NCBI GenBank assembly: GCA_029863005.1
Contig: JAOTWF010000020.1
Span: 1-32,914, forward strand
Direction of reading: 5' to 3'
Source: Gammaproteobacteria bacterium
Lineage (GTDB): Bacteria; Pseudomonadota; Gammaproteobacteria; Acidiferrobacterales; Sulfurifustaceae
DNA length: 32,914 nt
Shown here in pieces: positions 10,370-15,316 of this stretch. Both the position numbers and the translations under genes were made by a program. A model generated the notes under the pieces. That model saw only the letters and a list, made by a program, of their open reading frames with translations, had not been told where the DNA came from and searched no databases. The stretch's first letter is position 1; every line of letters begins with the position of its first letter.

Positions 10370-13369
10370 ATGTCTGATCCCTCTTACCGTTTGATCAATG
10401 CGGCACTTGCCGCGATTCCTGTGCCGTTGCACGGGCAGGTCTCCGCTTACTGGCAAGAACTCGCGCCGCACGTGGCGGCGCTGCCGGCGAAAAAGTGGTT
10501 TGAGTCCCTGCCGCGCGTTTTTGCCGCGAGCGAATTCGTCGCACGCCGCTGCATACAGCAACCAAATCTGTTGACTGACTTGATTGCATCCGGCGATCTC
10601 CTGCGTCCCTATCCAACCGGTGAGCTGGCGATACGTGTCGCACGATTGCTGGAGGGAGCCAAGGACGAGTTGTCGCTTAAAACCGGTCTGCGCCGGTTGC
10701 GCCAGCGCGAGCTGGTTCGCATCGCCTGGCGCGATCTCGCCGGCTGGGCCGATCTGAAGGAGACCCTCGCGACGCTCTCCGAGTTCGCTGATGCCTGCGT
10801 GCATGAAGCGCTGGAGAAATTGCATGTCTGGGCGTGCGCGAATAGTGGCGAGCCGCGCGGTGAGCACAGCGGCAAACCCCAGAAGCTGGTGGTGCTGGCC
10901 CTGGGCAAGCTCGGTGGGGAGGAACTAAATTTTTCCTCCGACGTAGATCTCATTTTCGCTTACCCGGAAGAGGGCGAGACAAAGGGTGCCGTGGCGCTAA
11001 GCAACCACGAGTTTTTCCTCCGCCTCGGCCAGTCGCTGATCAATACGCTGAACGAGAACACCGCCGACGGATTTGTGTTCCGAGTGGACATGCGCCTGCG
11101 TCCGAACGGGGCCAGTGGGCCACTGGCGCTTTCCTTCGCCGCCATGGAGCATTACTACCAGACACATGGACGCGAGTGGGAGCGTTACGCTTTTATCAAG
11201 GCGCGGGTGATTGCCGGCGACCGAAAGGCCGGCGAAGAACTGCTTCAGACGCTGAAGCCCTTCGTGTATCGCAAGTATCTTGATTACGGAACGATCGAGT
11301 CGATACGCGACATGAAGGGCATGATCGAGCGCGAAATGGCGCGCAAAGGGATGCAGGGCAACATTAAGCTCGGGCGTGGCGGTATCCGGGAAATAGAATT
11401 CATCGTTCAGACGCAGCAGCTGATCCGCGGGGGCCGTGAACCACAGTTGCAGGAGCGGCGCCTGCTGAAGGTGTTGCCGCACATGGTGGCGGCGGGCTGC
11501 ATCGCACCCCCGGCAGCGGACGAACTGACGCAGGCTTATGTGTTCTTGCGCAATATCGAACATCGTCTGCAAATGATGGCCGATCAGCAAACCCAACAAC
11601 TTCCCACCGATGAAATAACGCAGCAGCGGCTGGCCTTTGCCGCCGGATTCGATGATGTGCCGGCGCTGATGGATGAACTGGAGCGCCAACGCGGGAAGGT
11701 GCACGGGCATTTCGCGCAACTGTTCCACACCGGGGAGGAGGCGGCCGGCAAACGTGAACCCGATCCGCTCGCGGCGGTATGGCTGGGAGCCGCCGAGGCC
11801 GAGAACGCAAAGCAAATCCTGCGCGACAGCGGTTATGCCCGGTCGGACGAGGCATTGAATCTGGTGAACGCCCTGCGCGAGGGGCCAATGTACAAGGCGT
11901 TTTCCACCGGTGCCCGCGCGCGCATGGACCGGGTGCTGCCGCTGGTGCTGGAAGCGGCCGGGAAGAGCGATGACCCCCTGACGACCTTGCAACGGCTGGT
12001 GCATCTGCTCGAGGCCATCGGCCGGCGTACCGTTTATTTTTCGCTGATGGCGGAAAACCCCCGCGTGTTGACTCAGCTGGTGCGGCTCGGCGGGGCGAGC
12101 CCATGGATCGCGAACTGGATCGCACAGCATCCGATCCTGCTCGACGAACTGCTCGACCCTGTCCTGCATGAGTTGCCAACACCGGAGACATTGCAGGATG
12201 AACTGCGCCAACGCCTGGCGCATATTCCCGAGGAAGACCTGGAACTGCAGATGGAAGTATTGCGGGAATTTCGCCACGGCCATGTGTTGCGCGTGGCAGC
12301 GGCTGACCTAGCCCGGGATATAACTGTCGCTCGCGATGGTCGTCAGGCACCTCGTGGTACTTCTAGTTCTATCAGCCCTGCGCCTCCGTCCGAAAGAGCT
12401 TCGCCTCGGGACGGAGGCGCTACAGATGTTGGTTCGGGACTGGCCCCGGAGCAGACTGGTGCGGCGCTCGCGATGGTCGCGGAGTGTGTAGTGGCAGCGG
12501 CGCTCGAGCTGGCAAACCGCGATCTCGAGCGCAAGCACGGGGCACCGCGCTGTCCAGATGGCGAGACGTCTCCCGGTTTTGCCGTCATCGGTTACGGCAA
12601 GCTGGGGAGTCGTGAGCTGGGTTACGGCTCCGACTTAGACATGATTTATCTTTACGAAGGCTGTACTGAAGGTGCGACCCGTGGACCGCGTTCGCTGCCG
12701 AACGAGGCGTACTTTGCCCGTCTCGGCCAGCGACTGATTCACATCCTGACGACGCGTACGCCGGGCGGTATCCTGTACGAAGTCGACATGCGCCTGCGAC
12801 CGAGCGGCAAAAGCGGTCCGTTGGTCTCGAGCCTGGATGCGTTCCTGGAATATCAGCGCGACCATGCCTGGACCTGGGAGCATCAGGCGTTGGTGCGCGC
12901 CCGGCCGGTGGCCGGCAATCCCCGCCTGCGGCAGGGCTTCGCCGAAATCAGAAAGGAAATCCTGTGCCAGCCGCGTGATCCCAATAAGCTTAAGATGGAT
13001 GTGCGGGAGATGCGGGAGAAGATGGCGGCGGAAAAAGTGAATCACGGCGCGACCCAGGCCGATATCAAGCACGACCCGGGTGGTATCGTCGATATCGAAT
13101 TTATGGTGCAATACTGGGTCTTGCGGTGGGCACACGATCATCCCGGGCTCACCCGCCACACGGAGAACATCCAAATCCTGGAAGCCCTCGAGGCGGAGGG
13201 CCTGCTGGAACCGGCGCGGGCACGGTGGCTTTCGGAGGCTTACCGCCGCTACCTTTCCGTGGAGCATCGCCTCAAGCTGATGGAGCGCGGCTCGCTGGCC
13301 GATCCCGCGGAACTCGGTGAGTGGCCGGAACGTGTGAGGCGCCTGTGGGATGAAACCTTTAATGATTGA
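10370..13369 (+). CDS. glnE: Glutamine synthetase adenylyltransferase / adenylyl-removing enzyme
   Basis: A 999-residue bifunctional enzyme that adds AMP to, or removes it from, glutamine synthetase according to the nitrogen state signalled by PII and glutamine. It has two nucleotidyltransferase modules. The N-terminal module, which removes AMP, has LGKLGGEELNFSSDVDLIFA at about residues 179-198 and RVDMRLRPNG near 240. The C-terminal adenylyltransferase has YGKLGSRELGYGSDLDMIYL at about 742-761 and EVDMRLRPSG near 805. Helical GlnE domains follow each (for example GRGGIREIEFIVQTQQLIRG and DPGGIVDIEFMVQYWVLRW). The usual length is about 950. The excess is a roughly 40-residue Pro/Ser/Gly-rich insert at about residues 650-699, encoded by a REP-like palindrome, which replaces the usual segment after AAADLA. 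The gene remains open and ends 16 bp before ilvE. Confidence 0.97.
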   Translation: MSDPSYRLINAALAAIPVPLHGQVSAYWQELAPHVAALPAKKWFESLPRVFAASEFVARRCIQQPNLLTDLIASGDLLRPYPTGELAIRVARLLEGAKDELSLKTGLRRLRQRELVRIAWRDLAGWADLKETLATLSEFADACVHEALEKLHVWACANSGEPRGEHSGKPQKLVVLALGKLGGEELNFSSDVDLIFAYPEEGETKGAVALSNHEFFLRLGQSLINTLNENTADGFVFRVDMRLRPNGASGPLALSFAAMEHYYQTHGREWERYAFIKARVIAGDRKAGEELLQTLKPFVYRKYLDYGTIESIRDMKGMIEREMARKGMQGNIKLGRGGIREIEFIVQTQQLIRGGREPQLQERRLLKVLPHMVAAGCIAPPAADELTQAYVFLRNIEHRLQMMADQQTQQLPTDEITQQRLAFAAGFDDVPALMDELERQRGKVHGHFAQLFHTGEEAAGKREPDPLAAVWLGAAEAENAKQILRDSGYARSDEALNLVNALREGPMYKAFSTGARARMDRVLPLVLEAAGKSDDPLTTLQRLVHLLEAIGRRTVYFSLMAENPRVLTQLVRLGGASPWIANWIAQHPILLDELLDPVLHELPTPETLQDELRQRLAHIPEEDLELQMEVLREFRHGHVLRVAAADLARDITVARDGRQAPRGTSSSISPAPPSERASPRDGGATDVGSGLAPEQTGAALAMVAECVVAAALELANRDLERKHGAPRCPDGETSPGFAVIGYGKLGSRELGYGSDLDMIYLYEGCTEGATRGPRSLPNEAYFARLGQRLIHILTTRTPGGILYEVDMRLRPSGKSGPLVSSLDAFLEYQRDHAWTWEHQALVRARPVAGNPRLRQGFAEIRKEILCQPRDPNKLKMDVREMREKMAAEKVNHGATQADIKHDPGGIVDIEFMVQYWVLRWAHDHPGLTRHTENIQILEALEAEGLLEPARARWLSEAYRRYLSVEHRLKLMERGSLADPAELGEWPERVRRLWDETFND
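12380..12423. repeat. REP-like palindrome inserted in frame in glnE
   Basis: A perfect 12-bp inverted repeat, GCGCCTCCGTCC (12380-12391) and GGACGGAGGCGC (12409-12420), with a 17-nt loop. On the minus strand it begins with GTAG (12420-12423), the tetranucleotide that heads REP elements mobilised by RAYT-type transposases. It lies in a low-complexity insert in the linker between the two glnE catalytic modules. A 15-bp direct repeat (12328-12342 and 12465-12479) flanks the whole insert. Structure is seen directly; REP identity is inferred. Confidence 0.7.
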
Positions 13370-14551: not shown

Positions 14552-15316
14552 CTAGGCGACGTCAGTCAACGGCTTGAGTGCCTTGTGGAATCCCACCGTC
14601 CCGCCCAGCACCGAATTCCCGATGACATTTTTGAATCCCAGCTCCGCGAGCAGGGCAGACAACTCTTCCGTCGAGTAAAACAGGCGGATGGCCTGGATGA
14701 AGTAATCGCGGCATTTCAGCGACGCCGGTCCGCTGCGAAAGAGCCTGGGGATAACACCCATGAGGAGCTTCAAATATATGTAGTAGGCCTGCTCCACCAG
14801 CTTATTGGCCGGTCGCAGCATGTCGCAGTGGTAGAAATGACCGCCAGGCTTGAGCACCCGGTTGATCTCGGAAAACACATTGATCACGCGCAGGTGCCGG
14901 GTCGCCCATTGCAGCGTCACCACGTCGAAATAGTTGTCCGGGAACGGCAGGTGGTGCACGTCGCAGATGAATGACTTGATTTGAAAACCATGATGCAGGG
15001 CGCGGTCCCGGCCGACCTGCTGCATCGCGATGCTTCGGTCTGCCGCGTACACATCGAGTTCCGGTTGTTTTTTCAAAAGACTGATCCCGATTACATTGGT
15101 ACCGGCGCACACGTCCAGCACCTTGTGTTGGGGCTGGATATCGATGGTGGAGATGAACCGGTTGCGCAACCGGTTCAGCAGGCCGAGGCTGGCGTAGTTG
15201 TTGGCGCGGTCGTAATAGCGTGCCACGTCGGAGAACACGGCATTGATTTCATTCGACCAGATGGCGTTGAAGGCTTTTTCCCGGTCATTTTCTTTTCCGG
15301 CATAACAGTAGTTCAT
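14552..15316 (-). CDS. UbiE/MenG-like class I methyltransferase
   Basis: A 254-residue SAM-dependent methyltransferase. ATG at 15316 has AGAGGA 5 nt upstream; an in-frame ATG at 15340 lacks one. N-terminal residues (NEINAVFSDVARYYDRANNY, then LGLLNRLRNRFIS) match the ubiquinone/menaquinone C-methyltransferase entry pattern, F-x-x-VAxxYDxxN. SAM motif I is altered: VLDVCAGTNVIG instead of the usual D-x-A-G-G-T-G-D. Later motifs fit the family: ICDVHHLPFPDNYFDVVTLQ, then RVLKPGGHFYHCDMLRP. The C-terminal part, with GTVGFHKALKP, resembles UbiE endings (GGIVAIHKGYK-like). It is therefore a UbiE-like paralogue, perhaps for a quinone or other lipid, not necessarily the housekeeping enzyme. It stands alone, converging on the zinc-finger gene with 27 bp between. 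Confidence 0.85.
   Translation of the reverse strand: MNYCYAGKENDREKAFNAIWSNEINAVFSDVARYYDRANNYASLGLLNRLRNRFISTIDIQPQHKVLDVCAGTNVIGISLLKKQPELDVYAADRSIAMQQVGRDRALHHGFQIKSFICDVHHLPFPDNYFDVVTLQWATRHLRVINVFSEINRVLKPGGHFYHCDMLRPANKLVEQAYYIYLKLLMGVIPRLFRSGPASLKCRDYFIQAIRLFYSTEELSALLAELGFKNVIGNSVLGGTVGFHKALKPLTDVA

Follow-up and report, generated by a model that had tools for sequence, protein, structure and literature searches.

What is an extra stretch of DNA carrying a perfect palindrome doing in the middle of glnE, and what has it made of the encoded protein? The window analysed here is a whole contig of 32,914 nucleotides (C125) from a 2.45 Mb draft genome that comprises 134 contigs and is 95% complete. 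An earlier note on this DNA had read the stretch as a REP-like palindrome domesticated within a two-headed nitrogen regulator. The gene product matched the Pfam families GlnE (E=9e-160) and GlnD_UR_UTase (E=4.8e-47), and both nucleotidyltransferase motifs were recognised by eye in its translation. Compared with the insert-free GlnE proteins of five congeners (G001, G003, G004, G006 and G007), against which the borders of the net insert were set, the window protein contains 40 extra residues (39 when counted by alignment columns) in an uninterrupted reading frame, as the earlier note had proposed. Two other congeners, G002 and G005, were left out of this comparison, as their contigs lack the site. 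The insert-free proteins read VAA-x-D-I/V-G-(P/T)-GL, the genus-type segment after RVAA being x-D-I/V-GPGLAPE, with GTGLAAE in G003, and the window protein reads VAA-ADLARD...GGA-TDVGSGL. TDVGSGLAPEQ is kept past the insert, which therefore precedes an intact native segment; the conserved segment that was thought to be missing after AAADLA is thus retained. The insert peptide is rich in Pro, Ser, Gly and Ala, with the hairpin encoding PAPPSERASPRDGGAT. In G002, contig C21 starts at its base 1 within the glnE loop, at GPGL (locus L226), and no upstream glnE half was matched in that genome, perhaps because a repeat interrupted the assembly there.

Table 1. Features of the glnE locus, in window coordinates
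Feature	Position	Strand	Description
glnE	10370..13369	+	GlnE adenylyltransferase/adenylyl-removing enzyme, 999 aa, frame open across the insert
Net insert relative to genus-type glnE	12303..12422	+	120 bp, 40 codons; left edge uncertain by a few bases
Element body TAGC...GCTA	12309..12422		114 bp; ends matched against 21 copies
15-bp direct repeat, copy 1	12328..12342	+	Within the insert
REP-like hairpin, intact	12372..12424	-	Full-length match to model R1, 75.1 bits, E=5.4e-15 in the window
Palindrome, left arm	12380..12391	+	Perfect 12-bp inverted repeat
Palindrome, right arm	12409..12420	+	Perfect 12-bp inverted repeat, 17-nt loop between the arms
15-bp direct repeat, copy 2	12465..12479	+	Native glnE sequence (ALAMVAE), different frame

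The position of the extra residues in the protein was assessed on an AlphaFold2 model of the window GlnE built from 26 sequences. The model had a mean pLDDT of 87.6, with values below 50 at residues 652–689, between the helices formed by residues 624–656 and 693–723. Residues 464–999 of the model superimposed on residues 449–945 of Escherichia coli GlnE (3k7d; Z 47.4, rmsd 1.8, 490 aligned), and residues 14–453 on the adenylyl-removing fragment 1v4a (Z 47.3, rmsd 2.2, 426 aligned). These two structural alignments place the loop within the adenylylating half, not in the linker between the adenylyl-removing and adenylylating modules to which it had been assigned. The insert is therein predicted to form a disordered loop.

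The perfect inverted repeat described earlier is present in glnE; of 1000 glnE shuffles that kept the dinucleotides, 14 contained a perfect inverted repeat with arms of 12 bp or more and a loop no longer than 40 nt. On the minus strand, TGTAGCGCC leads into the stem, so that the GTAG ascribed to this copy is indeed there. The right half of the insert aligned to the hairpin family described below better than 1000 of 1000 shuffles. The left half resembled a partner hairpin only weakly: its best score was equalled by 14 of 1000 shuffles and its mean score by 29, and with TAGCC held fixed these numbers rose to 91 and 330 of 1000, respectively. The left half may represent what is left of a second hairpin that once formed a head-to-head pair with the right one, a weakly supported reading of the sequence. 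The 15-bp direct repeat that had been described as flanking the insert is real (0 of 3000 shuffles of positions 12250–12600), but it does not flank: the left copy lies within the insert and the right copy ~40 bp past the right border. A target-site duplication is ruled out by this position and by the frame mismatch, the copies being 137 bp apart, which is not a multiple of 3; our guess is a local templated duplication. A search of positions 12000–12800 against Rfam returned a single match, a nematode snoRNA below the gathering score (E=0.14), and membership of an Rfam family was therefore rejected. Elsewhere in the window, positions 15154–15177 hold a 24-bp perfect palindrome that may be an operator, its two 15-nt arms overlapping (TGAACCGGTTGCGCAACCGGTTCA).

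When the insert was used as a DNA query against its own genome, two clear further copies were found, 90% (E=3e-11) and 86% (E=1.5e-8) identical to it across 49 bp, together with weaker ones. A covariance model of the hairpin (R1) was built from six copies, one of which is the glnE copy itself, and it gave 11 matches at 5 places in this draft genome (E≤1). Apart from glnE, the remaining four places are intergenic as judged by inspection of open reading frames. The expectation of many intergenic copies is therefore borne out as to location and not as to number. At the same threshold matches were obtained in 11 of 21 genomes, although G010 and G027 had a single weak match each, and at E≤0.01 it matched 10 of the 20 family genomes searched. 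Across nine genomes of the genus, the number of matches ranged from 0 to 33, the congener G003 having none in the model search; these counts are lower bounds because 150 candidates per genome were scored. With the matches of G010 and G027 left out, 136 matches formed 70 clusters. Inverted '+-' pairs, mostly ~128 bp long, made up 34 of the 70 clusters, and three-hairpin units ('++-' or '+--') another 10; the sequence of most longer units suggests that the apical loop of one pair contains a second pair. Thirteen full-length intergenic pairs available for comparison with the element body in glnE measured 123–125 bp.

The stems of the family were compared in an alignment of 129 matches at E≤0.01, drawn from 67 of the 70 cluster loci and representing 124 distinct rows. 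Paired bases filled 88.9% of the cells, and 324 cells were changed on both sides of a pair, versus 110 after shuffling and no more than 62 when the partners were slid, counts that lean towards the model because the alignment was fitted to it. One of the 16 pairs was unpaired in 72 of the 124 rows. The loop core was largely conserved while the stems were swapped. The stem-loop thus appears to have been kept by compensatory change, and the glnE palindrome is one member of a hairpin family that is dispersed and mostly intergenic. The ends of the unit were examined in 21 of the 70 clusters, picked by having both TAGC and GCTA. The base preceding TAGC was C in 12 and G in 9 of these 21, so a strict GTAG tag does not hold for the family. 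Matching flanks of 2 to 9 bp, which would mark a target-site duplication, showed no surplus among the 21 copies with both ends. A pair in G001 (L233), upstream of ispA, and one in G007 (L209) occupy a seemingly equal place with identical 12-bp flanks on both sides. At several places in G015, the copies (L271–L276) have left and right flanks in common, as though a longer repeat enclosed the pair.

These observations lead us to conclude, with good confidence, that the glnE insert is a copy of this lineage's REP-like hairpin, inserted in a loop of the adenylylating half and retained since it is read in frame. Several findings weigh against this reading: the genome itself has few copies for a REP family, and G003 has no match; clear homology to a partner hairpin is lacking in the left half of the insert; and, as described below, no mobilising enzyme is linked to the family, the distribution among congeners does not follow simple descent, and the in-frame loci are few.

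To follow the site across GlnE proteins, we examined 114 aligned rows, in which some loci appear twice; the 80 named loci were the top-ranking ones among 591, and one row without upstream sequence was dropped. The site measures exactly 17 residues in 108 of them. The six longer rows represent four distinct sequences, all from the one taxonomic family (f1): the window (56 residues, present twice), G008 (38), G010 (30) and G009 (27; L050 and L113 are the same sequence entered twice). Among the rows surveyed, none from outside the family was longer at the site. The insert is therefore restricted to the lineage in this survey, with the five congeners and the more distant GlnE proteins lacking it; the conserved presence in distant GlnE proteins and the lack of other palindrome copies in the genome that the earlier note had named as refuting its reading were both absent. 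The set of genomes included G004, a one-contig genome of the genus (2,864,672 bp), and G011 of the same family (3,958,814 bp). The GlnE proteins of G014 and G015 (L052 and L054) are extended elsewhere, with 59 and 43 residues separating HGxPxC from GFAVIGYGKLG where 8–11 are usual; these second-site inserts differ in position from the one in the window, and they share some DNA, and an 11-bp perfect palindrome was noticed by eye in that of G014.

The G008 insert adds ~22 residues at the same site as the window insert and is 54 bp shorter inside, and the two share both ends, TAGCC and GGCGCTACAGAT. It ranked top in a model search of seven GlnE loci with filters off (19.4 bits, E=0.018), and in the same search nothing in the G009 and G010 inserts rose above the background of chance matches. 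In whole-protein comparison, G004 and G006 are nearer to the window yet have no insert, whereas the farther G008 has one; simple descent therefore fails to explain the pattern. A tree of the upstream part of glnE joined G008 to G009 (99/96) and separated it from the window, G004 and G006. In a tree of the downstream part it grouped weakly with G004 and G006 (80/81), no branch reaching the strong mark, and the window took no firm position in trees of this half. Likewise, over 150-bp segments, G008 was nearest to G009 in 14 of 15 up to glnE nucleotide 2250 and nearest to a member of the genus in 4 of 4 beyond, the switch in affinity falling ~200 bp past the insert. By these sequence comparisons, the glnE gene of G008 (L046) looks mosaic. 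Same-site inserts in two backgrounds can mean either that a single insertion was transferred or that the site is a hot spot. Within the hairpin-insertion explanation, independent insertions at a hot spot in the window, G008 and perhaps G009 and G010, in place of one inherited insertion, are a tenable though less favoured possibility. G009 and G010 are also longer at the site, by 10 and 13 residues, in genomes without a clear family copy (none in G009 and one at E=0.1 in G010), and the G008 copy sits in the part of glnE that groups with G009 and not with the window; against a hot spot, the ends common to the window and G008 are better explained by one event, either recombination or descent.

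Evidence that hairpins lie within genes was obtained for at least 4 of the 70 clusters. Pfam was applied to 19 open reading frames spanning 16 clusters besides glnE, and the other clusters were judged from their open reading frames alone. Domains were found at three loci of that check: ispA, in which the element lies outside the domain, and nuoG, both of G001, and moeA of G012. In MoeA of G012, the hairpin lies within a stretch of 42 residues that corresponds to 2 in E. coli MoeA (query positions 276 and 319 joining chain positions 289 and 292), and it encodes PAPVFESASPCTTGAT. In nuoG of G001, the NuoG frame opens with the hairpin, read as SAPGSEGAAPRDPGAI ahead of the 2Fe-2S domain; a downstream start is possible, and this hairpin is perhaps not translated. 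In glnE, moeA and the nuoG start region, the hairpin has one common orientation and frame. A broader reading would make the family a second, independent set of protein-entering palindromes of the Rickettsia kind, in free-living sulfur oxidisers, supplying a soluble loop in one orientation and one frame to GlnE, MoeA and NuoG in the absence of a RAYT, with the GlnE copy kept for altering the response of the adenylylating half to regulators. We regard this as improbable, and three in-frame loci are too few as proof of frame selection.

A mobilising enzyme was also sought. No match to PF01797 (Y1_Tnp) was found in the 95%-complete draft genome itself, and matches were present in 8 of the 9 genomes of the genus. 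Of 10 Y1_Tnp proteins scanned, 5 passed the NCBIfam cut-off for RAYT, 1 that for IS200 and 4 neither. No copy of the hairpin family was found near the congener Y1_Tnp genes at 20 loci, covering 20 of the 23 matches. Flanks were inspected at seven loci. Different GTAG palindromes border the gene on either side in four of the five RAYTs (L099, L105, L106 and L107) and in the unscanned L109; L098 has one upstream only, the contig ending downstream; and none was seen by eye around L094. The flanks of L099, L105, L106, L107 and L109 bear at least four other GTAG palindromes in total. G003 has Y1_Tnp genes but no family match, and the genome of the window has copies but no Y1_Tnp match. Given this mismatch and the lack of family copies at Y1_Tnp loci, no RAYT is tied to the hairpin family. 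A related transposase for TAGC...GCTA units was not identified either.

These results bear directly on a reading that extends the earlier note, in which a true RAYT-mobilised GTAG REP has been domesticated and now adjusts the cross-talk of the adenylyl-removing activity with the adenylylating one. The minus-strand GTAG, the hairpin, the inverted pairs and the RAYT-family genes of congeners all fit it, as does the persistence of both nucleotidyltransferase motifs. It is nevertheless very unlikely: the check for a RAYT gene came back empty in the genome itself and at the 20 congener loci, the RAYT flanks inspected bear other GTAG repeats, the tag is found at 9 of 21 left ends, and the predicted disordered loop varies from 40 residues in the window to ~22 in G008 and none in five congeners. 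Among the publications listed in a literature search, none dealt by title with cross-talk through the GlnE linker. Ordinary linker expansion or slippage that produced a chance palindrome, with no mobile repeat, would suit the length variation within the family and the 15-bp local repeat, which suggests local duplication, but is extremely unlikely, being contradicted for the right hairpin (though not for the left 60 bp) by the 49-bp matches in the same genome, the full-length model match and the compensatory changes over 124 distinct rows.

The glnE insert is most likely a tolerated selfish insertion. Under the hairpin-insertion reading, the family would spread through a single-stranded hairpin intermediate on which an enzyme acts in trans, a route that the absence of target duplication at the outer copies would fit. 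Selection would then have retained the glnE copy solely for an in-frame, soluble loop of Pro, Ser, Gly and Ala, and the insert would have little or no effect on GlnE. The locus provides a case of selfish palindromic DNA joining a conserved regulatory enzyme, for which close relatives show the unoccupied site. Should further genes follow the same single orientation and frame, this would suggest that protein tolerance filters such repeats beyond Rickettsia. The family also presents a hairpin with a conserved loop core, swapped stems and no visible RAYT, in genomes whose RAYTs adjoin other REPs.

The closest known systems include the GTAG REP families and BIMEs, which the available part of Di Nocera 2013 (PMC3733652) describes as short hairpins, mostly intergenic and often in head-to-head pairs, with a terminal GTAG tag in >90% of members for most families. 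Our hairpins are likewise mostly extragenic, often in inverted pairs, and have compensatory stems. They differ in a tag that is C/G-TAGC (G in 9 of 21) and not conserved as GTAG, in a 12-bp stem that is much swapped around a conserved loop core, in pairs that seem in part nested, in the lack of a RAYT partner and in a low copy number; RAYT-associated REPs usually exceed 100 copies per genome, according to the portion of PMC2817692 at hand. Short dispersed non-coding units with inverted ends (TAGC...GCTA) also recall MITEs, in contrast to which the 21 copies bear no sign of a target-site duplication. The Rickettsia palindromic elements (RPE) are, in the available text of PMC10969869, in-frame palindromes in unrelated metabolic genes that add a short peptide; in R. 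conorii they measure ~150 bp and fall into ten families, with nearly half of the copies in open reading frames. The hairpin family resembles them in being in frame in unrelated genes (glnE of the window and G008, moeA of G012 and probably nuoG of G001) and differs in that at least 4 of 70 clusters, against nearly half of RPE copies, are in genes, a likeness drawn by description from that part of the source. For Sulfuricaulis limicola, the accessible part of the genome paper (PMC5024460) names palindromes only for CRISPR repeats. A minority of REPs lie within genes, and PMC3733652, in the part available, lists their encoded residues in Opitutus terrae, Thauera, Thioalkalivibrio uvrA and others. 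Since both in-gene REPs and the Rickettsia elements have already been published, the glnE case is not a new kind of system; it is a modest new example of an in-gene palindromic repeat.
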